The notes below the pieces were generated by a model. That model was not told the origin of the DNA. It did not search any database and was given only the letters and a program-made list of their open reading frames with translations. Of a stretch of DNA of 64,000 nucleotides, positions 28,122 through 38,195 are shown one piece after another; the first letter of the stretch is position 1; each line of letters starts with the position of its first letter. Location: contig NZ_FNGY01000001.1 in the NCBI RefSeq assembly GCF_900103665.1, positions 186,001 through 250,000 on the forward strand, read 5' to 3'. The stretch comes from Pedobacter steynii. GTDB taxonomy: Bacteria; Bacteroidota; Bacteroidia; Sphingobacteriales; Sphingobacteriaceae. Both the position numbers and the translations under genes were made by a program.

Positions 28122-28805
28122 ATGGAACTGTTATTAGTGGAAGATGATCTTCGTGTTTCCGAACTCATTAAAAGAGGGCTGGAGGAGCAGGGGTACCTGG
28201 TTACGCTGGCTTACGACGGATTGATGGGAAAGAAATTAATGACTTCCAACCGTTACGACCTGATCATTACGGATATTGTGCTTCCACAGATGAATGGGAT
28301 TGAGCTGTGTAAAGAAATCAGAATGATCTGGCCCGAAATTCCGGTCATCATGCTCACTGCCCTCGGTACTACAGATGATAAAATTGATGGTTTTGATGCT
28401 GGCGCTGATGACTATCTGGTGAAACCTTTTGACTTCCGGGAGCTTCATGCAAGAATAAAAGCCTTGTTGAATCGTTCCCAAAGCACATCGCAGGCCCCGC
28501 TAACGAACTTATTGAAATATGCAGACCTGGAAATGAACCTGCAAACAAATGTCGTGAGCAGGATGGGAATGGAAATCAGCCTTACGCCTAAAGAATTTAA
28601 GCTCCTGGAGTATATGCTGCGGAATAAAGAGCGGATTCTGACGCGAACAGAAATCGCGGAAAAAGTATGGGATACCCATTTTGATACCGGGACGAACTTC
28701 ATAGACGTCTATATGAACTATCTTAGAAAGAAAATCGATAAGAACTTTGATCATAAACTAATTCATACCAAAATCGGAATGGGCTTTATTTTCAAAGAAA
28801 ACTGA
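28122..28805 (+). CDS. OmpR/PhoB family response regulator
   Basis: A 227-residue regulator. The receiver domain (residues 1-118) has Asp8/Asp9, the phospho-acceptor Asp51 (LIITDIVLPQMNG), Thr79 and Lys101 (LVKPF). The DNA-binding winged helix (residues ~130-226) has LTPKEFKLLEYMLRN and TNFIDVYMNYLRKKID, typical of the CusR/CopR/MprA branch. It pairs with the kinase 19 bp downstream. Members of this family bind direct repeats of 11-bp period; four such repeats lie just after the kinase gene, upstream of mgtC. Confidence 0.94.
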   Translation: MELLLVEDDLRVSELIKRGLEEQGYLVTLAYDGLMGKKLMTSNRYDLIITDIVLPQMNGIELCKEIRMIWPEIPVIMLTALGTTDDKIDGFDAGADDYLVKPFDFRELHARIKALLNRSQSTSQAPLTNLLKYADLEMNLQTNVVSRMGMEISLTPKEFKLLEYMLRNKERILTRTEIAEKVWDTHFDTGTNFIDVYMNYLRKKIDKNFDHKLIHTKIGMGFIFKEN

Positions 28806-28824: not shown

Positions 28825-30192
28825 TTGAAAATCCGTTATAAACTCAGCCTTTTATTTACCCTGCTTTTTGCGGTGATCATCTGCGGGTTTGCCTTTTTTA
28901 TCTATTTCTCTTCGGCAGAAAACAGGGAGGAGGAGTACTATAAGCGCCTGAGGCAACTGGCGGTTACTAAAACCAATCTGTTATTGGATGCTAAAGTAGA
29001 ACCAGGTGTTTTACAAACGATCTATAAAAATTCGCCCGGCTCTTTATTCCAGGAAGAAGTGGCAGTTTATGATACGGATTTTCACCTGTTGTACCATGAT
29101 GCGGTAAATATTGACAAGATCAAAGAAACCAGGGGGATGATTGCCGAGATTGTCAGCAAGGGGGAAATTCAGTTTAATCAGGGACAACTCCAGGCGGTCG
29201 GTTTTTTATATCGGTATAAAGGAGCGGACTATGTCATCACTGCTGCCGCAAAAGATGAATATGGATTGATAAAGTTGGGTAACCTTCGTTTTATCCTGAT
29301 TTTATCTGTGCTCGGAAGCATCGTTCTGACCGTTTTTGCGGGTTATCTTTTTGCAAAACATGCCCTGAAGCCGGTGGCGGAGATGGTCGATGAGGTGGAA
29401 GAAATTACGGCTAAAAATCTTGACCTGAGGCTTAAAGTCGAGAACAGCAAAGATGAAGTCGGAGAGCTGGCCATTACTTTTAACCGGATGCTCGACAGGA
29501 TTGAGAACTCCTTTGATGCCCAGAAAGAATTTGTCTCCCATATCTCTCATGAGCTGAGAACCCCATTGGCTACCGTAATTGCAGAACTGGAAATCTCTCA
29601 GAATAAAGAACGAAGCACAGCAGAATACAAAAAAGCAATTGAACTGGCCCTAACGGATGCCCGTAAACTTGCCCGTTTAAGCACCAGTTTACTGAATCTG
29701 GCCAATGCGAGCTATGATCAGGCAGAGATCAGCTTTAAGGAAATCCGTCTGGATGAAGTGCTGCTGGATGCAAGAACGGAGGTGATGCACAACCAGCCAG
29801 GATACCAGGTGAACATCATCTTTGATCAGGAAGCAGAAGACGATGATTTTATCTCGATCCAGGGGAATGAACACCTGTTAAAGGTTGCCTTTATCAACCT
29901 GATGGAGAACAATTGCAAGTTTTCTGAAAACCAGGAATCAGTGGTCTCCATTTCCTATTATAAAGAAAAAACGATCCTGCGCTTTTCGGATCAGGGAATC
30001 GGTATTGCCGAAAAAGACATTGAAAATATCTTTAAACCCTTTTACAGAGGGAATAATAAAGAATATGCAGAAGGGAATGGCATCGGCCTTGCCCTGACTA
30101 AAAAGATTGTCGGCCTCCATAACGGAGAAATTCTGCTGACTTCCAAAGAGAATGAAGGAACTACTTTTATCCTCATCCTAAACCACGTTTAG
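28825..30192 (+). CDS. sensor histidine kinase (CusS/PhoQ-like layout), TTG start
   Basis: A 455-residue kinase. The best start is the TTG at 28825 (reads MKIRYKLSLLFTLLF); no ATG lies suitably. Helix 1 (residues ~7-28), a periplasmic sensor of ~125 residues, helix 2 (residues ~152-175), HAMP (KHALKPVAEMVDEVEEITAKNLDLRL), HisKA with His242 (VSHISHELRTPLATV) and HATPase_c (N box MENNCKFSENQ, G1 RFSDQGIGIAEKD, G2 GNGIGLALTKKI). It phosphorylates the regulator upstream. Position before mgtC-mgtA suggests it senses Mg2+ or another divalent cation; that is inference. Confidence 0.92.
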   Translation: MKIRYKLSLLFTLLFAVIICGFAFFIYFSSAENREEEYYKRLRQLAVTKTNLLLDAKVEPGVLQTIYKNSPGSLFQEEVAVYDTDFHLLYHDAVNIDKIKETRGMIAEIVSKGEIQFNQGQLQAVGFLYRYKGADYVITAAAKDEYGLIKLGNLRFILILSVLGSIVLTVFAGYLFAKHALKPVAEMVDEVEEITAKNLDLRLKVENSKDEVGELAITFNRMLDRIENSFDAQKEFVSHISHELRTPLATVIAELEISQNKERSTAEYKKAIELALTDARKLARLSTSLLNLANASYDQAEISFKEIRLDEVLLDARTEVMHNQPGYQVNIIFDQEAEDDDFISIQGNEHLLKVAFINLMENNCKFSENQESVVSISYYKEKTILRFSDQGIGIAEKDIENIFKPFYRGNNKEYAEGNGIGLALTKKIVGLHNGEILLTSKENEGTTFILILNHV

Positions 30193-30209: not shown

Positions 30210-30248
30210 CTAATGACTTTCTAATGCCATTCTAATGGTCCCCTAACG
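30210..30248 (+). promoter_or_regulatory. four 11-bp-spaced direct repeats: response-regulator binding sites upstream of mgtC
   Basis: CTAATG occurs at 30210-30215, 30221-30226 and 30232-30237, and the variant CTAACG at 30243-30248, each exactly 11 bp apart. OmpR/PhoB-family regulators bind tandem half-sites with 11-bp period. The last repeat ends 21 bp before the -7 box at 30270, over the -33 position. The regulator encoded at 28122 is the natural candidate. Confidence 0.75.
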
Positions 30249-30269: not shown

Positions 30270-30277
30270 TACTTTTG
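30270..30277 (+). promoter_or_regulatory. -7 promoter box of the mgtC-mgtA operon
   Basis: TACTTTTG matches TAnnTTTG exactly. The -33 region reads GATCCGGC with no TTTG, so the promoter probably needs an activator, consistent with the repeats just upstream. Transcription would start near 30282, leaving a leader of about 118 nt before mgtC. Confidence 0.65.
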
Positions 30278-30301
30278 CATCACAATAAAAAAACAAACCT
30301 T

Positions 30302-30358
30302 ATGGATAAGCCTCCGTGTGATAAGCCATTATTTTTTCACCTCCCCTCCTCAGAATAG
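30302..30358 (+). CDS. 18-codon proline-rich leader ORF upstream of mgtC (mgtL-like)
   Basis: ATG at 30302 opens an ORF reading MDKPPCDKPLFFHLPSSE and ending at TAG 30356-30358. It lies wholly in the predicted mRNA leader and its stop is 1 nt before a long hairpin. Four of 18 residues are proline (including a Pro-Pro pair) and three are acidic. Proline-rich leader peptides (MgtL, MgtP, CorL) control Mg2+ transporter genes in enterobacteria by ribosome stalling or destabilisation when Mg2+ or proline is low. Sequence similarity to these is limited to composition and position; the function is inferred. Confidence 0.5.
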   Translation: MDKPPCDKPLFFHLPSSE

Positions 30359-30359
30359 T

Positions 30360-30398
30360 GCTTTGTTGCTGTCCCTGAGTTGGGACAACAACAAAAGC
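30360..30398 (+). promoter_or_regulatory. hairpin sequestering the mgtC start region
   Basis: Left arm GCTTTGTTGCTGTCCC (30360-30375), loop TGAGTT, right arm GGGACAACAACAAAAGC (30382-30398) give 15 base pairs with one mismatch and one bulged A. It begins 1 nt after the leader ORF stop and ends 1 nt before the mgtC ATG. No T tract follows, so it is not a terminator. A ribosome on the leader ORF stop would melt the left arm. Confidence 0.65.
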
Positions 30399-30399
30399 T

Positions 30400-31110
30400 A
30401 TGTTAACTACATTAGACTTCACAACCCGTCTGTTGCTGGCGCTTACTTTGGGTGCAGGAATCGGCATAGAACGCCAATGGCGTCAGCGTATTGCAGGTTT
30501 ACGCACCAACACGCTGGTATCCCTGGGTGCCGCAATCTTCATTACGCTCGCCGTAAAAATCGGTGGGGACGCCAGTGGCAGAGTTGCCTCTTATATCGTT
30601 AGTGGCATCGGATTTCTCGGCGCAGGCGTCATCATGAAAGATGGAACGAGTGTGCGCGGACTCAATACTGCAGCCACACTCTGGTGTTCCGCTGCAATCG
30701 GCGCACTGTGTGGAATGGGCTTTATTTCGGAAGCAGCCATCGGCGCGATCTTTATTGTGATGGCACACCTGATGTTACGCCCATTGGGGCTGAAATTGGG
30801 TAAAATCTCCATTTTTCATAAAAGCGAATCTTCAGATACGGAATACCTGATCTCCATCAAGTGTAAAGAAACCGTAGAAAATCACATCCGTGTCCTCTTG
30901 CTGCAACACCTGGGTAACCATGATAAGTTAATGCTGCGGGCATTGACCAGCAGCGATAATGGAGATCCTGCAAATGCGATCATCACTGCGGAGATCATTG
31001 CGGCGGGCAATCAGGACGAGCTGATGGAGAAAATGGTGAGCAGGCTGACGATCGAGAGCGAGGTAATGCGGGTAAGCTGGGAATTAACAGGACAACAATC
31101 AGAGTTATGA
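30400..31110 (+). CDS. mgtC: MgtC/SapB family membrane protein
   Basis: A 236-residue inner-membrane protein. The N-terminal ~135 residues hold about five helices with the family motif RLLLALTLGAGIGIERQWRQRIAGLRTNTLV-type stretch, then YIVSGIGFLGAGVIMKDG and RGLNTAATLWCSAAIGALCG. The C-terminal ~90 residues form a small cytoplasmic domain. MgtC promotes growth in low Mg2+ and modulates ATP synthase in pathogens. It overlaps mgtA by ATGA (31107-31110), so the two are translationally coupled, as in Salmonella mgtCB. Confidence 0.9.
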   Translation: MLTTLDFTTRLLLALTLGAGIGIERQWRQRIAGLRTNTLVSLGAAIFITLAVKIGGDASGRVASYIVSGIGFLGAGVIMKDGTSVRGLNTAATLWCSAAIGALCGMGFISEAAIGAIFIVMAHLMLRPLGLKLGKISIFHKSESSDTEYLISIKCKETVENHIRVLLLQHLGNHDKLMLRALTSSDNGDPANAIITAEIIAAGNQDELMEKMVSRLTIESEVMRVSWELTGQQSEL

Positions 31111-33791
31111 AAACACTAAAAACGAACCATCAGAAAGCGGTCTCAGGCTTCGACGACGTAGCAGTAACCAAATTGAGAAACGCCGCAAGGGGAGACCAGG
31201 ACTTCTTTTATGCCATGCTGAGTAGTAATAAAGAAGGATTGGGCCCATCCCAAATTGCAGAAAAGAGAAAGATGTTTGGATTAAATGAAATTCAGCACGA
31301 AAAAGCACCATCCTGGTATGTTCAGTTATTTCAAGCCTTTCTAAACCCTTTTATTGCGGTGTTGATGATCTTAGCTGTCATTTCCTATATCATGGATGTA
31401 TGGCTGGTTAAAACGCCTGAGCGGGATTATAAAACGGTGATCGTAGTAGGTCTGATGGTAGTGCTAAGTTCTTTGCTGCGCTTCTGGCAGGAATACAGTA
31501 GCAATCGTGCGGCAGAACAATTGAAAAGTATGGTGAAAACGACCGTTAACGTGCTCCGTAAAATAGGCGGCAGAAAGGAGATCGATATCAAAAATATCGT
31601 TCCGGGAGATGTGATCTTTTTAAGTGCAGGAGATATGATTCCGGCAGATATCCGCATTATCCAGTCAAAAGACCTGTTTGTAAGTCAGGCGATGCTGACC
31701 GGAGAATCTCTTCCTCTGGAAAAGAACGGAGAACTCATCCCGGATGCCGATCATAAATCTCCTTTGGAATTGGATAACATCTGCTTTATGGGAACCAATG
31801 TGTTGAGTGGAACGGCAACGGCCATTGTCGTGACGACCGGCAATCTGACCTATTTCGGTTCTATCGGAAAGGCGATCACTGGAAAACGTGCAGAAACAAG
31901 CTTCGATAAAGGAGTCAACAAAGTGAGCTGGCTGCTGATTCGCTTTATGCTGGTGATGGTGCCGCTTATTTTCCTCCTGAACGGATTGACCAAGGGGGAT
32001 TGGTTTGAGGCTTTATTGTTCGGAATTGCCGTTGCAGTAGGTCTTACGCCCGAAATGCTGCCTATGATTGTAACAGCAAATCTGGCCAAAGGGGCAAAGA
32101 ACATGAGCAAACGTAAAGTGATTGTGAAACGGTTGAATGCCATTCAGAATATTGGCGCTATGGATGTGCTCTGTACGGATAAAACAGGAACGCTGACGAT
32201 GGATAGGATCATTCTGGAAAGGCATTTGAATGTGTTTGGTGAAGAAGATGATGAAGTGCTGAAATGGGCCTATTTCAATAGTTTCCATCAGACCGGATTG
32301 AAAAATCTGCTTGATCTGGCGGTTCTGGAGCATGTAGAGCTGCATGACTACCTGAAGGTGGAAGAAGATTACGTGAAGGTAGATGAGATTCCGTTTGACT
32401 TTCAGCGGAGACGCATGAGCGTGATCCTGGAACAGAAAAACGGGAAACAGCTGTTGATCTGCAAAGGAGCAGTAGAAGAAATGCTGGACCTCTGTTCACA
32501 TGCTTTCGATCCGGGAGAAGACCGCCGGCTTCACATCGAAAAAGATGGCATTGTACCGATGGATGAAACGATGAGGAATACGGTGCTCCGCATTTCCCGT
32601 AAACTCAATGCAGATGGACTGAGGGTGCTGTTGGTAGCCATAAAGGAACATGAAGAACGCCCGGCGAACTACACGGTAGGGGATGAGCAGAAGATGATCC
32701 TAACGGGGTTTATCGGCTTCCTTGACCCGGCAAAGCCCTCTGCTAAACCTGCAATTGAAGGATTGCAGAAACTGGGCGTCAGTGTAAAAGTCCTGACCGG
32801 CGACAATGATATCGTGACGAGGAAAATCTGCAGGGATGTCGGAATTCCTTTTCAGCAGGTCTTATTGGGCAATGAAATCGAGCAACTAAGTGATGAGGAG
32901 CTTTCTGCTCAGCTTGCGGAGACCAGTATTTTTGCCAAGCTCAGTCCGATTCAAAAATCAAGAATTGTAAAATTGCTGCAGGCGAAAGGTCATACCGTTG
33001 GTTTTATGGGCGATGGCATCAATGATGCGGCGGCGCTAAGAGATGCAGATGTGGGTATTTCAGTAGATACGGCTGTAGATATAGCCAAGGAAAGTGCCGA
33101 TATCATTTTGCTGGAAAAGGACCTGATGGTACTCCGGAAAGGAGTGGTCTATGGACGCAGGACTTTTGGAAACATCATCAAATATATCAAAATGACTGCC
33201 AGCAGTAATTTTGGAAACATGTTCAGCATGCTGGGGGCCAGTGCATTTCTTCCCTTTTTGCCCATGTTGCCCATCCACCTGTTGATTCAGAACCTCTTGT
33301 ACGACATCTCACAGATTTCTATTCCCTGGGACAGAATGGATGAGGACTTCCTGGAAAAACCTCAAAAGTGGGATGCAGCCGGGATCAGCCGGTTTATGAT
33401 GTACATAGGGCCGATCAGCTCCATCTTCGATTATGCCACATTTGCAGTGTTGTTCTTTGTTTTTAAAGCCAATGCCCCGGAACACCAGACGCTGTTCCAG
33501 ACCGGCTGGTTTGTAGAAGGACTGTTGTCGCAAACGCTGATTGTACACATGATCCGGACCCGGAAAATTCCTTTTATTCAAAGCTGGGCAACGACTCCGG
33601 TAGTCGCATTAACGACCTTGATTATGCTGGTTGGAATCGCAATTCCTTTTAGTCCTTTTGCCGGAATATTGAAGCTGCAAGCCTTGCCGGCTGCCTATTT
33701 TCCATGGCTCATTGGCATCCTGACTGGCTATTGTTTACTGACTCAATATGTGAAATCATTGTTCATTAAAAAGTTTAGTCAATGGTTGTAA
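31107..33791 (+). CDS. mgtA: Mg2+-importing P-type ATPase (MgtA/MgtB type)
   Basis: An 894-residue P3B-ATPase. The actuator loop has MLTGESLPLEK, the phosphorylation site is CTDKTGTLTMD (Asp358), the nucleotide domain has KGAVEEM, and the hinge has GFMGDGINDAAALRDADVGISVDTAVDIAKESADIILLEKDL-type sequence. About ten membrane helices are visible. It imports Mg2+ (and Ni2+) driven by ATP and is normally induced at low Mg2+. It is the second gene of the operon with mgtC and lies behind a two-component system, leader ORF and hairpin. Confidence 0.94.
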   Translation: MKTLKTNHQKAVSGFDDVAVTKLRNAARGDQDFFYAMLSSNKEGLGPSQIAEKRKMFGLNEIQHEKAPSWYVQLFQAFLNPFIAVLMILAVISYIMDVWLVKTPERDYKTVIVVGLMVVLSSLLRFWQEYSSNRAAEQLKSMVKTTVNVLRKIGGRKEIDIKNIVPGDVIFLSAGDMIPADIRIIQSKDLFVSQAMLTGESLPLEKNGELIPDADHKSPLELDNICFMGTNVLSGTATAIVVTTGNLTYFGSIGKAITGKRAETSFDKGVNKVSWLLIRFMLVMVPLIFLLNGLTKGDWFEALLFGIAVAVGLTPEMLPMIVTANLAKGAKNMSKRKVIVKRLNAIQNIGAMDVLCTDKTGTLTMDRIILERHLNVFGEEDDEVLKWAYFNSFHQTGLKNLLDLAVLEHVELHDYLKVEEDYVKVDEIPFDFQRRRMSVILEQKNGKQLLICKGAVEEMLDLCSHAFDPGEDRRLHIEKDGIVPMDETMRNTVLRISRKLNADGLRVLLVAIKEHEERPANYTVGDEQKMILTGFIGFLDPAKPSAKPAIEGLQKLGVSVKVLTGDNDIVTRKICRDVGIPFQQVLLGNEIEQLSDEELSAQLAETSIFAKLSPIQKSRIVKLLQAKGHTVGFMGDGINDAAALRDADVGISVDTAVDIAKESADIILLEKDLMVLRKGVVYGRRTFGNIIKYIKMTASSNFGNMFSMLGASAFLPFLPMLPIHLLIQNLLYDISQISIPWDRMDEDFLEKPQKWDAAGISRFMMYIGPISSIFDYATFAVLFFVFKANAPEHQTLFQTGWFVEGLLSQTLIVHMIRTRKIPFIQSWATTPVVALTTLIMLVGIAIPFSPFAGILKLQALPAAYFPWLIGILTGYCLLTQYVKSLFIKKFSQWL

Positions 33792-33910
33792 GTATTTGAA
33801 TAAAAAATAGTTAAAAATTGTAAAAATAGAGAGTTTAGTCCTTGTAAACATCGGATTGTGAGATTTTGCGCTGGAAATTCTCTCTTTCAAACCTCCAAAA
33901 AACAACACGA

Positions 33911-35017
33911 ATGAAACAGATTTTACTGACCGGCAGTTTCGTACTGCTGATGGCTTCCTGTGCCAAAAAAAAAGAGAAGGAACAAGCTGCAAATTATCAG
34001 CTCGCTGGTGATACCGTGATCATCTCAGTCAACTCAAACCTGCAGCATAAACTAAAACTGGATACGGTTGCAGAAACTGCCTACCGCATGACACTCAGTA
34101 GTGCCGGAACGGTAAAGGCAATTCCAAACTTCTTCGCAGACATCGCAGCACCATTCTCCGGAAGGGTGGTCAAAGTGTTTCTGAAGCTGGGAATGAAGGT
34201 CGAACCCGGAACTCCGCTTTTCGAAATGGTATCCGCCGAATTTATAGAAACCCAGAAGAACTATTTCGCCGCAAAGTCCGAATTAAAGAGGGCGTTGTTG
34301 AATTTAAAACGTCAGCGGGACCTCAAAAAAAATGAGGTGGGTTCAGTTAAAGACCTGGAAGAGGCGGAGACCTCTTATGAGCTGATTTTAAAAGAGTATG
34401 AAAATGTGAGGGCTGCCCTCAGGATCTACCAGACTGACCCGGATAAACTGGTTCTGGGACAACCGTTGATCATCCGCTCTCCCATCAAAGGGGAGGTCAT
34501 TCAAAACGACCTGGTGACCGGCCATTACCTGAAAAGCGACGAACCCCCTCATGCAAAAATCGCAGAACTGAACAAAGTCTGGATCGCCGGACAGGTGAAG
34601 GAAAAGGACATCCGGTTTATACATCAGGGCGACGAAACGACGATTGCAGTAGCGGCCTATCCGGGACGGAAAATAAAGGGAAAGGTCTATCGCGTCGAAG
34701 ATCTGATCGACGAAGAGACCAGAAGCGTCAAGGTCCTGATCGAATGTGAAAATAAGGATTATGCCCTCAAACCCGGGATGTACGTGATGGTTAGTTTCAA
34801 GGATAGCCCCCAAAATACAGCTGGGGTGCCTGTTAAGTCTGTTTTCCAGATGAACGACAACAGTTTCGTGTTCCTGCAGACTGCCCCGGGGAAATTTGTA
34901 CGCCGGAAAGTCGAAACAGCGGCGGTTGATCAGGGAGAAATGATGATTACATCTGGGCTTAAACAAGGGGAAACGATTGTCACTGAAGGTGGTTTTTACC
35001 TGCTGGAAGCAAAATAA
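33911..35017 (+). CDS. efflux RND transporter periplasmic adaptor lipoprotein (CzcB/CusB type)
   Basis: A 368-residue membrane-fusion protein. The start at 33911 (MKQILLTG) gives a lipoprotein signal with lipobox LLMASC; an in-frame ATG at 33866 has no signal sense. Features: barrel-sandwich halves (AAPFSGRVVKVFLKLGMKVEPGTPLFEM and RSPIKGEVIQNDLVTGHYL), a helical hairpin between them, and a C-terminal beta-barrel (VKSVFQMNDNSFVFLQTAPG, GLKQGETIVTEGGFYLL). It links the RND pump to the outer-membrane factor encoded downstream. Confidence 0.92.
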   Translation: MKQILLTGSFVLLMASCAKKKEKEQAANYQLAGDTVIISVNSNLQHKLKLDTVAETAYRMTLSSAGTVKAIPNFFADIAAPFSGRVVKVFLKLGMKVEPGTPLFEMVSAEFIETQKNYFAAKSELKRALLNLKRQRDLKKNEVGSVKDLEEAETSYELILKEYENVRAALRIYQTDPDKLVLGQPLIIRSPIKGEVIQNDLVTGHYLKSDEPPHAKIAELNKVWIAGQVKEKDIRFIHQGDETTIAVAAYPGRKIKGKVYRVEDLIDEETRSVKVLIECENKDYALKPGMYVMVSFKDSPQNTAGVPVKSVFQMNDNSFVFLQTAPGKFVRRKVETAAVDQGEMMITSGLKQGETIVTEGGFYLLEAK

Positions 35018-35063
35018 AAGCTGAATTAATACAAGTCATAACCATTAAGCGACAAATATTACA

Positions 35064-38000
35064 ATGAAAAATATTGTACTTACCGCCATACAAAAACGCT
35101 GGCTGATGCTGGCCCTATTCCTCCTCCTGGGAGTATTTGGGTATTATTCCTGGACAAAGCTTGCAGTGGAAGCCTATCCTGATATTGCCGATGTGACTTC
35201 CCAGGTCGTTACACAGGTTCCTGGCTTGGCCGCGGAAGAAGTAGAACAACAAATCACCATCCCTGTGGAAAGAGCCTTAAATGGAATGCCTGGGATGCAC
35301 GTCATGCGAAGCAAAAGCACTTTTGGACTGTCTATCATCACCATTGTGTTTAACGACGGCACAGACGATTATTTTGCACGTACACGCATTCAGGAGCGGC
35401 TCACTGAAGTGCAGCTTCCCTACGGTGCCGCGCCTGGCCTTGACCCGCTGACTTCGCCAACAGGCGAAATCTACCGGTATATCATTGAAAGTAAGAGACA
35501 TGACCTCCGGGAGCTGACTGATCTTCAAAACTGGCTGATCATCCCAAAGATCAAGCAGATTTCGGGCGTGGCCGATGTGACCAATTTTGGGGGCATTACC
35601 ACCCAGTATCAGATCGAACTCGATCCTGCAAAGCTGGAACAGTATCAGCTGAATATTGATGATGTCGAAGAAACGATTGCTAAAAATAATTCAAATGTTG
35701 GGGGAAGCATCCTGAACAGGGGAGAACAGGGCTATGTGGTTCGTGGAATCGGCCTGCTGAGAAACCTGGAAGACATTGGCCGCATCGTAGTCAGGTCGGA
35801 AAAGGGAGTATCCATTCTGCTGAGCGATCTCGGAGCATTAAAGTATGGAAAACTGGAGCGTAAAGGTGTCCTGGGTTATACGGATTGCAGTCGTGATTAT
35901 AGCGAAAGTATCCAGGGGATCGTATTGCTTTTGAAAGGAGAAAATCCTTCGGATGTCCTTGCAGGAATCAATAAATCCGTAGATGAGCTCAACAATGGCC
36001 TGCTTCCTGAAGGGGTAAAGATCCATACTTTTCTGGACCGTACGGATCTGGTCGATACCACGCTAAAGACGGTGTCGCATACTTTGATCGAAGGAATGGC
36101 ACTGGTCATCATTGTCCTGATCGTTTTTCTGGGCAGCTGGAGAGGTGCATTGCTGGTGGCGATTACCATTCCCATCTCCTTGCTCATTGCTTTTATCCTG
36201 ATGAAACTGACGAATATTCCAGCCAATCTGCTTTCTCTGGGGGCGATAGACTTTGGGATCATTGTGGACGGGGCCATTGTGATGATGGAAACGATTCTCA
36301 AAAAAAGGGAAGACCATCCGGAGGAGTTTCTGGAAGAGCAATCTATTGCTGATCGTGCTTTTAGTGTGGCAAAACCGATCCTCTTTGCCACCCTGATTAT
36401 CATCACTGCATACCTGCCTTTATTTGCTTTTGAGCGGGTAGAAAAGAAGCTGTTTACACCGATGGCATTTACTGTAGGCTATGCTTTATTTGGTGCATTA
36501 GCTGTTGCCTTGTTGTTGATTCCCGGACTTGCTTACCTGACTTACCGCAAGCCTAAAAAGCTATATCATAACAAATGGCTGGAGAAATTAAGCCTTGCTT
36601 ATCACAGCAGAACCAGCAAAATCATGGCGCGGCCGGGCAAGATTTTTCTCCCTTTAGCATTGGTGCTGGTATCGGGTCTTGTTTTGAGTATTACTGTAGG
36701 AAAGGATTTCTTACCTCCTCTTGATGAGGGTTCTATATGGCTGCAGGTTCAACTTCCTCCGGGGATCACGGTGGAGAAATCCAGAGAGATGAGTGATACG
36801 CTTCGTCATCGGACGATGAAGCATAAAGAGGTGACTTATATGATGATTCAGGCCGGAAGAAACGACGACGGAACTGACCCATTTACCGCTGCTCACTTTG
36901 AATGTTCCATCGGGATTTTGCCTTATAGCGAATGGCCCCGGGGAAAAACCAAAGCAGACCTGATCGGGGAATTGTCGAAAGAATACGAAAGCATGCCTGG
37001 CTATACTGTGGGGTTTGCGCAACCGATGATTGATGGAGTGATGGATAAGATTTCAGGGGCACATAGTGAGCTGGTCGTAAAGGTTTACGGCGATGATTTT
37101 AAGGAAAGCAGGAGAATCGCAGAGGACATCAGGCGAACGCTGAAAACCGTCAAAGGAGCGGTAGACATCGCGATCGATCAGGAACCGCCATTGCCGCAAT
37201 TGCAAATTCTGGCAGATAGGGAGAAGATCGCTCAGTATGGATTAAATGTAGCTGATGTCGGAAACCTGATCGAGGTGGCAATAGGTGGAAAAGCAATTTC
37301 GCAGGTATTCATGGGCAATAAGGTTTATGAGCTGACCTGCCGCTATAAAGAAAGCAGCCGGGATAGCCCTGAAAAAATCGGAAACCTGATGCTGACGAAC
37401 AATGAAGGTGCTAAAATTCCTTTGTCTCAGGTCGCAGACATCAGGCTGAGTACGGGAGAAAGTACCATTACCAGGGAGACGAACCGGAGGCATCTTACGG
37501 TAAAGCTTAACATGAGAGGTGCGGATCTATCTTCCTTACTTAAAGAAGCTAAAACAAAAATTGAAAAGGATATTACGTATGATCATCAGAAATACAGCAT
37601 CGAGTGGGGTGGGCAGTTTGAAAACCAGAATCGTGCCTATTCCAGGTTGCTGGTTATCGTTCCCCTGGCCTTGGCGATCATGTTTTTATTGCTGTATGTC
37701 GCCTTCGGAAAGTTTAGTCAGGCGGGACTGATACTGACCATTGTTCCCCTTGCTTTGTTTGGCGGAATGCTGGCTTTAAACCTGAGAGGAATGACGCTCA
37801 ATGTTTCTTCTGCTGTTGGCTTTATTGCACTTTTTGGCGTGGCCATACAAAACGGAGTCATCATGATTTCGCATATCAATAGCCTGCGAAAGCAGGGGAT
37901 GGCGTTAAAGACCGCGGTAGTTGAAGGTGCAAAACACCGTTTCCGACCAGTATTGATGACGGCCACAGTAGCGGTTCTTGGCTTGTTGCCTGCCTCATTG

Positions 38001-38195
38001 GCTACGGGGATCGGTTCAGATGTGCAACGGCCTCTGGCTACCGTCATCGTTTACGGTTTACTTTTCTCTACAGCCATCACTTTGTATGCCCTTCCAGCAC
38101 TTTATTACCTGTTGGAGCGTAAGGCTGAAGCGGATTCTTCAGCTGGTAAAATCCGATTATTAACCACTAATTCTAACACCGATGAACTTAATTAA
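35064..38195 (+). CDS. heavy-metal efflux RND pump (CzcA family)
   Basis: A 1043-residue inner-membrane proton/metal antiporter of the HME-RND group. Helix 4 carries AIDFGIIVDGAIVMMET with Asp396, Asp402 and Glu409 in the spacing of CzcA (DFGxxxDGAxxxxE), which points to divalent ions such as Co, Zn, Cd or Ni rather than Cu+. The porter loops contain SKSTFGLSIITIVFNDGTD and ISGAHSELVVKVYG. It sits between adaptor and TolC-like genes in a czcBAC order and overlaps the latter by 14 bp. Confidence 0.94.
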   Translation: MKNIVLTAIQKRWLMLALFLLLGVFGYYSWTKLAVEAYPDIADVTSQVVTQVPGLAAEEVEQQITIPVERALNGMPGMHVMRSKSTFGLSIITIVFNDGTDDYFARTRIQERLTEVQLPYGAAPGLDPLTSPTGEIYRYIIESKRHDLRELTDLQNWLIIPKIKQISGVADVTNFGGITTQYQIELDPAKLEQYQLNIDDVEETIAKNNSNVGGSILNRGEQGYVVRGIGLLRNLEDIGRIVVRSEKGVSILLSDLGALKYGKLERKGVLGYTDCSRDYSESIQGIVLLLKGENPSDVLAGINKSVDELNNGLLPEGVKIHTFLDRTDLVDTTLKTVSHTLIEGMALVIIVLIVFLGSWRGALLVAITIPISLLIAFILMKLTNIPANLLSLGAIDFGIIVDGAIVMMETILKKREDHPEEFLEEQSIADRAFSVAKPILFATLIIITAYLPLFAFERVEKKLFTPMAFTVGYALFGALAVALLLIPGLAYLTYRKPKKLYHNKWLEKLSLAYHSRTSKIMARPGKIFLPLALVLVSGLVLSITVGKDFLPPLDEGSIWLQVQLPPGITVEKSREMSDTLRHRTMKHKEVTYMMIQAGRNDDGTDPFTAAHFECSIGILPYSEWPRGKTKADLIGELSKEYESMPGYTVGFAQPMIDGVMDKISGAHSELVVKVYGDDFKESRRIAEDIRRTLKTVKGAVDIAIDQEPPLPQLQILADREKIAQYGLNVADVGNLIEVAIGGKAISQVFMGNKVYELTCRYKESSRDSPEKIGNLMLTNNEGAKIPLSQVADIRLSTGESTITRETNRRHLTVKLNMRGADLSSLLKEAKTKIEKDITYDHQKYSIEWGGQFENQNRAYSRLLVIVPLALAIMFLLLYVAFGKFSQAGLILTIVPLALFGGMLALNLRGMTLNVSSAVGFIALFGVAIQNGVIMISHINSLRKQGMALKTAVVEGAKHRFRPVLMTATVAVLGLLPASLATGIGSDVQRPLATVIVYGLLFSTAITLYALPALYYLLERKAEADSSAGKIRLLTTNSNTDELN

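Follow-up and report, generated by a model that had tools for sequence, protein, structure and literature searches.

Organization of the mgtC–mgtA locus

The window, a 64,000-nucleotide stretch of the Pedobacter steynii genome to whose positions all coordinates below refer, carries on its forward strand an mgtC gene of the MgtC/SapB family (PF02308, 30400–31110) and an mgtA gene (31107–33791). The mgtA product, a magnesium-translocating P-type ATPase, matched the NCBIfam model TIGR01524 at 1307.7 bits (cut-off 610.75), and the window MgtC is 99% identical to that of Pedobacter sp. KBW06. Upstream, on the same strand, domain matches identify an OmpR/PhoB-type response regulator (28122–28805) and a sensor histidine kinase (28825–30192); the best NCBIfam matches of this pair were to heavy-metal systems, below their cut-offs. 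Past a gap 3' of mgtA, CzcB/CusA-type metal efflux genes occupy positions 33866–38195.

Four direct repeats (CTAAT/CTAAC), 11 bp apart, lie on the forward strand between the kinase gene and mgtC (30210–30247) and are the probable binding site of the neighbouring response regulator. The pattern of this cluster, with up to 3 mismatches allowed, had one match in the 8.06-Mb genome. The repeats are followed by a TAnnTTTG promoter box (TACTTTTG) at 30270–30277. Transcription probably starts a few bases past the box, at about 30283–30286 and thus upstream of the leader ORF described below, a placement that uses what we take to be the box-to-start-site distance; the two-component system probably activates transcription at this repeat promoter. 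A transcription start downstream of 30302, with which the sequence-only reading had held its leader to be incompatible, is unlikely given the conserved box.

The leader ORF (30302–30358) has 18 codons, encodes MDKPPCDKPLFFHLPSSE and ends in a TAG codon at 30356–30358. Its conserved codons 2–6 (30305–30319; D K P P C) form an acid/proline N-terminal motif. A single base separates the stop codon from a hairpin at 30360–30398 ('3:4'), and another single base separates the hairpin from the mgtC ATG at 30400. The hairpin has 15 pairs (2+3+4+6), with one bulged A and one C·A mismatch, and the leader TAG is also able to pair with a CTA at the mgtC ATG. The ORF, the 15-bp hairpin and the 1-nucleotide spacings had been reported in the sequence-only reading, and re-reading the sequence recovered all three. 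Folding further predicts that the leader tail ('region 2', 30343–30360) is able to pair with the apical part of the hairpin ('region 3', 30367–30385) in place of the start-codon hairpin.

Leader ORFs at related loci

Related loci were collected by searching with MgtC. Matches were obtained in 65 of 99 relatives (E <= 0.001), in 52 of 399 genomes of the family (E <= 1e-60) and in 10 of 395 genomes of the class (E <= 1e-50), the genome's own match being counted each time; from a named genome collection, the best 80 loci among the matches listed were used. We parsed 103 loci (L001–L019, L031–L065 and L111–L159, L001 being the window); distant paralogues (L020–L030) and a set that is mostly non-Bacteroidota (L066–L110) lie outside this set. 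At least three repeats in register were present in 89 of the 103, and in 84 of these 89 a TTTG lay 31 bases past the last repeat. Repeats plus box defined 87 promoter loci, with near offsets allowed and the repeats of L033 entered by hand.

At 58 of the 87 promoter loci, the first ATG past the promoter belongs to a short ORF that terminates upstream of mgtC. The other 29 have no leader, their first ATG being that of mgtC or of an ORF running into the mgtC start; these are mostly from Sphingobacterium and Chryseobacterium. At L050, L051, L136–L139, L142–L143 and others, mgtC is the first ORF behind the same repeat promoter. The genus taken as Sphingobacterium contains both kinds, with a leader in L128, L129, L132 and L133. 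Four of the 58 ORFs (L060, L064, L113 and L145) were unlike the rest and were excluded after inspection, leaving 54; among these, the first ATG of L124 gives MQ and a stop, so that the next ORF was chosen by eye, and the start used at L052, an in-frame ATG that precedes the tblastn match by 42 bases, is doubtful. The 54 leaders represent 46 distinct loci, eight being judged to duplicate a genome already included (in five pairs leader and hairpin are identical; the other three are cut at different ends).

Leader length across the 46 distinct loci is 11–27 codons. Leader loci occur in Pedobacter, Mucilaginibacter, a genus taken as Sphingobacterium, Pseudarcicella (Flectobacillaceae), Siphonobacter, Nitritalea, Arthrospiribacter (Cyclobacteriaceae), Mongoliibacter, a Filimonas MAG and another member of the Chitinophagaceae, Weeksella and another member of the Weeksellaceae, Myroides, a Flavobacteriaceae MAG, Thermoflexibacter and further families. 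At L008–L012, L035, L036, L123, L124, L127 and L130–L133, the leader hairpin is separated from mgtC by a small ORF of 67–83 codons (beginning MFNFSKTQ in Pedobacter, and MFKF, MFHF or MHKR elsewhere), whose 3' end falls near or inside the start of mgtC; at these loci it is the start of the small ORF that the hairpin covers.

Conservation of the leader peptide is confined to its N terminus

Within the group of leaders beginning MDKPPC, the length of 18 codons and the first six residues are unchanged in all nine tabulated sequences, window included, while third positions of mgtC in the group are only 44–81% identical to those of the window. Across lineages, conservation is confined to the N terminus, where M-[D/E] is followed nearly always by proline or an acid (MDKPP, MDxGP, MENVPP, MEPD, MDPEP, MDLD). 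Of 21 lineage representatives, 18 have an acidic residue 2 (18 of 25 if four doubtful ORFs are included), all 21 have an acid somewhere in residues 2–5, and 15 have a proline within residues 3–6. The remainder of these peptides is poor in both (acid, 8 of 216 residues; proline past residue 6, 9 of 195). For comparison, D or E occupies residue 2 in 4.7% of 215 ORFs of at least 200 aa and in 6.6% of 2397 ORFs of 11–27 aa. N-terminal entropy over the 21 representatives was 1.45 bits at residue 2 and 1.30 at residue 5, against 2.4–3.9 at the other residues up to 11.

At the level of families, residue 2 is acidic in eight of nine lineages, one of the nine having been found with the motif; lineages share ancestry, and binomial p-values for residue 2 would overstate the case. 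The leaders at L206, L208 and L212, located with an MD-x-GP pattern, and six g69 leaders, spotted by eye and placed by the motif, are likewise not independent evidence for it.

The sequence-only reading had proposed conservation of the ORF among relatives as a check, and an acid/proline N terminus is indeed conserved in most relatives. Codon usage differs between groups: 28 leaders of the MD[S/A/T]GP type vary silently (GAC/GAT, GGC/GGT, CCC/CCG), whereas codons 1–6 of the MDKPPC group are nearly identical even at silent positions. Codons 2–6 of the window, GAT AAG CCT CCG TGT, are almost invariant in that group and include CCTCC, which we take to be the anti-Shine–Dalgarno core; an RNA-level role of these codons is possible.

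A hairpin over the downstream start codon

The RNA from 30283 to 30440 of the window folds with a z-score of −2.42 (2 of 200 shuffles as good), and the stretch past the leader stop with a z-score of −3.95. The corresponding stretch was more stable than the dinucleotide-shuffle mean at all 46 distinct loci, with z < −2 at 36. The 12 bases before the next start had a mean pairing probability above 0.6 in 28 of 46, although start-region pairing clearly exceeds that of shuffles only in some loci (on average, a fraction of 0.29 of the shuffles paired at least as strongly). At 35 of 46 loci the predicted 5' pairing partner of the start region is no more than 15 bases away from the leader stop, the stop-to-start distance being 36–74 bases; a helix to the start region is absent from the best fold in 8 of 46. 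In several loci the leader stop codon itself closes the stem, pairing just before or in the AUG, an arrangement partly dependent on starts taken from tblastn matches, which at nine loci (L042, L045, L047, L052, L055, L056, L059, L065 and L112) miss the start codon by 3 to 42 bases; the statistics given here for folding past the stop, arm and tail swaps, ribosome masking and synonymous codons use corrected starts. As at mgtQ of Salmonella, then, a structure is predicted to hide the downstream start region, both in the window and in most relatives.

The two arms of the hairpin co-vary. When arms were swapped between 23 lineage representatives, which were not picked by fold, cognate arms paired at −16.0 kcal/mol and non-cognate arms at −9.3 (p 5e-5); for 15 diverse hairpins the values were −17.1 and −7.6. 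Within groups, the cognate advantage held for MDKPPC (p 7.5e-4) and for the MDSGP leaders with a small ORF (p 0.015) and was weak for the MD[A/S]GP leaders before mgtC (p 0.095), whose hairpins are alike. Alignment with MAFFT and RNAalifold retained only 5 pairs for the MDKPPC hairpins, 1 of them changed on both sides, with stems that we judged to be misaligned, and 18 pairs for the MD[A/S]GP–mgtC hairpins, 2 changed on both sides. Arm swapping supports the kind of compensatory change that the sequence-only reading had suggested looking for. Two other roles for the inverted repeat were rejected: a DNA operator, since the arms differ between relatives yet stay complementary, and a terminator, since there is no T run 3' of the hairpin.

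Possible alternative pairing of the leader tail and the predicted effect of a masked ribosome

A fold in which the leader tail pairs with the hairpin apex is plausible for part of Pedobacter. In swap tests, which may partly reflect shared base composition, cognate tail–apex pairing exceeded non-cognate pairing for MDKPPC (p 0.011), for the MDSGP small-ORF group (p 2e-4) and for the 23 representatives (p 0.004), with no cognate advantage in the MD[A/S]GP–mgtC group (p 0.55). Measured against synonymous codons, the pairing of the 54 leaders gave a mean z of −0.27, with p < 0.05 in four. This control yielded a Fisher p of 0.047 over 32 hand-chosen representatives and was null over the 23 unselected ones (Fisher p 0.66); six members of the MDKPPC group ranged from 0.01 to 0.25, the window itself being at 0.25.

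In the window, the two folds are predicted to prevail at different transcript lengths. Full-length window RNA favours the closing hairpin (12.8 expected pairs to the AUG region vs 1.0 for tail–apex), so that an ON state would depend on folding kinetics or on a ribosome holding the RNA open. For a transcript extending only 26 bases beyond the stop, tail–apex pairing of the window reaches 11.6 expected pairs, and it gives way to the long hairpin once the last arm is added; at L003 the tail–apex fold persists even in full-length RNA. Before the last arm is transcribed, expected tail–apex pairs reach 6 in 48 of 54 leaders, with a mean of 10.9 against 7.0 for synonymous tails, a control biased by being judged at the 3' end that best suits the observed sequence.

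The sequence-only reading held that a ribosome finishing or stalling on the leader would open the hairpin. With a ribosome masked at the stop codon, 19 of the 54 leaders had their start opened by more than 0.2, 7 had it closed by more than 0.1 (including three Mucilaginibacter-type and three g69 leaders) and 28 gave intermediate values. The opening was significant overall (Wilcoxon p 0.012), and the window start rose from 0.22 to 0.57. Opening by a ribosome at the end of the ORF is predicted for the window and for a share of its relatives; it is one of two possible mechanisms. Masking at codon 5 opened the start by more than 0.2 in only 2 of 54, and the RNA otherwise stayed near its free state.

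Leaders directly before mgtA

MgtA was also used as a query (E <= 1e-200), matching 32 of 119 genomes of the genus and 19 of 385 genomes of the class. A TTTG-ATG-MDxGP pattern search of the 119 genus genomes matched 28; nine pattern-matched loci were inspected, of which three precede mgtA, two precede mgtC and four are without a repeat promoter. Three Pedobacter genomes have promoter and leader (MDSGPSYY...) directly 5' of mgtA. In a genus from a different family, six genomes carry before mgtA a hairpin together with a 15-codon leader (MDSGPSAKTYLIITV and related peptides), the hairpin ending at the AUG of a tiny ORF that precedes mgtA; this genus has a TTTG box and, in the sequence inspected, no repeats or mgtC. 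The occurrence of such leaders immediately 5' of mgtA, including in a genus where neither repeats nor mgtC were observed, indicates that the leader follows the Mg2+ operon. A similar leader is absent at several other mgtA loci (L221–L228, L234, L237 and L238). A dependence of the leader on the presence of mgtA was considered and rejected: counting duplicates, 40 of 53 leader loci have mgtA downstream, as do all 12 leaderless loci whose sequence extends far enough. Upstream of mgtA at L214 (genome G186), the leader position reads ACG GAC ATT GAT CCT GAA (DIDPEIILQF), with ACG in place of ATG; the leader there is either decayed or read from a non-AUG codon, and its start is strongly acid/proline.

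Discussion

We tentatively propose that a leader-peptide switch could control translation of the Mg2+ operon mgtC–mgtA, a reading to which we give a little under even weight. It builds on the conserved peptide start, the co-variation of the hairpin arms, the position of the leader and its geometry. The leader, the first ORF of the mRNA, would be translated, and its M-D-K-P-P start resembles sequences that pause or drop E. coli and Salmonella ribosomes and may, by that resemblance, act likewise. Two mutually exclusive folds would be available to the tail, the bases past the stop and the sequence preceding the AUG: tail paired with apex, leaving the AUG free, or the long hairpin, hiding it. At low Mg2+, ribosomes would be lost in the first codons, leaving the tail free to pair with the apex first during transcription, and mgtC–mgtA would be translated; ribosomes reaching the stop would cover the tail, and the start-codon hairpin would form on their departure. 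Such a switch would follow the logic of Salmonella mgtQ (PMC8092293), and its sign of control would be sensible, early ribosome loss giving more Mg2+ transporter. Marginally more guarded is our suggestion that an N-terminal acid/Gly-Pro motif, destabilizing ribosomes at low Mg2+ and wired to a fold over the mgtC or mgtA start, may be the Bacteroidota's own Mg2+ sensor.

Several observations count against the switch. Tail–apex pairing does not extend to all groups, and full-length window RNA favours the closing hairpin. A stop-masked ribosome tends to open the start, window included, which fits plain translational coupling. At L121, a locus outside the nine-sequence table, the MDKPPC leader is frameshifted to 12 codons yet the hairpin is intact; L214 has no ATG; and a third group of facts is the 29 leaderless loci among the 87. 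The motif MDxGP, with one acid and one proline, is also weaker than EPDP.

Plain coupling is nearly as likely as the switch, and we regard it as a serious if somewhat less probable account. A ribosome ending the leader would melt the lower hairpin, or the hairpin would juxtapose stop and start for re-initiation, so that a hidden start could be used whether or not the peptide start senses anything. The leader stop at the hairpin base, the closeness of the 5' partner to that stop and the significant opening by stop masking are all consistent with such coupling. It leaves unexplained why only the first residues are conserved, and in the seven closed cases a ribosome at the stop acts in the opposite direction.

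The remaining explanations are far less probable. The sequence-only reading had inferred Mg2+ or proline control of mgtC, and an attenuator responding to charged tRNA-Pro, like Salmonella mgtP, might be suspected from the four prolines of the window leader and from the proline in residues 3–6 of 17 of 23 representatives, two of which were found via a proline-containing motif. Proline control is unlikely, since a stall at the conserved proline codons 4–5 is too far upstream to reach the hairpin (masking there opens the start in 2 of 54) and since acidic residue 2 is conserved at least as well as proline. Three leaders from Weeksellaceae and Flavobacteriaceae (MDLD, MEVE and MDTE) have no early proline and a second acid instead, proline is rare past residue 6, and consecutive proline codons at the edge of a switching stem, as in mgtP, were not found here.

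A metal-binding riboswitch or another RNA-only sensor, the ORF being incidental, is slightly less probable still. Although the hairpin is conserved and codons 2–6 of the MDKPPC group hardly vary even silently, the hairpin sequence differs between lineages while the peptide start stays constant, and the 28 MD[S/A/T]GP leaders carry silent changes. No Rfam family, riboswitch covariance models such as the M-box included, reached its gathering score in the window, the one match near the site (E 0.54) being far below its own. Least probable is an ErmCL/TnaC-type arrest peptide that would stall ribosomes at the leader stop. The stop does lie at the hairpin base, but the C terminus before it has no conserved residues (entropy of 3.05–3.78 bits for every one of the last ten C-aligned positions, 21 representatives).

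The arrangement invites comparison with the leaders of enterobacterial Mg2+ genes. The sequence-only reading had likened the leader to mgtL, and the conserved acid/proline N terminus, the hairpin and the similar leaders before mgtA have strengthened that likeness. In MgtL of E. coli, ribosomes drop off at EPDP (PMC11282234); the Bacteroidota leaders, which likewise precede mgtA or mgtC with acid or proline at residues 2–5, begin MDPEP, MEPDS, MDxGP or MDKPP, and mgtL too is the leader of an Mg2+-transporting P-type ATPase. By the account drawn on here, mgtL acts on Rho-dependent termination (PMC11282234), whereas the Bacteroidota leaders have a start-codon hairpin.

The closest parallel in arrangement is mgtQ of Salmonella mgtCBRU, a short ORF (Asp2, Pro4, Glu5) beside a structure hiding a Mg2+-operon start. 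It requires Asp2 as well as Glu5, and the ribosome-binding site of mgtB is hidden or exposed according to which of the alternative folds is adopted (PMC8092293). Folds of this kind that involve the ORF, translational control and transcription driven by a two-component system are described for mgtQ (PMC8092293); the Bacteroidota leaders may share them, the alternative fold being only partly supported. As that source describes it, mgtQ has 8 codons and lies between mgtC and mgtB; the Bacteroidota leaders, of 11–27 codons, lie at the 5' end before mgtC, the small ORF or mgtA, and the place of the second acid is mostly taken by Gly-Pro or Pro-Pro (PMC8092293). The mgtM and mgtP leaders of Salmonella mgtCBR also combine short ORFs, proline-rich in mgtP, with alternative stem-loops before mgtC; in the account cited they mediate transcription attenuation by ATP and tRNA-Pro, and the required proline codons of mgtP are 10–11 rather than the 4–5 conserved here (PMC3641672).

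Short leaders before structural genes have also been linked to re-initiation, with Bacteroidetes among the groups showing an excess (PMC4833913). That excess is statistical and centred around 10–11 bp from stop to start, unlike the 36–74 bases, hairpin and conserved peptide start found here (PMC4833913). Bacteroidota are described as naturally without Shine–Dalgarno sequences, initiation being tuned by mRNA structure (PMC6847099), so that start hairpins gated by leader ribosomes are a plausible means of control in this phylum. A search of open-licence PMC papers (titles and the starts of abstracts) for Bacteroidota leader peptides with mgtC, mgtA or Mg2+ and for ribosome stalling found no report of such a system, in agreement with the sequence-only reading, which knew of no described case.

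The cases drawn on here of Mg2+ sensing through ribosome instability on acid/proline leaders are enterobacterial. The Bacteroidota leader with its hairpin looks like an independently built version of the Mg2+-sensing leader switches of gut bacteria. The peptide start is constant over several families, while the RNA arms, peptide length, promoter and first gene vary, and the dozens of natural leaders (MDxGP, MENVPP, MEPD, MDPEP, MDLD, MEVE) provide a test set for ribosome-destabilizing N termini. If the switch is real, the Bacteroidota leaders would be counterparts of mgtL and mgtQ, either convergent or very ancient, and ribosome destabilization would be suggested as a general bacterial readout of Mg2+.
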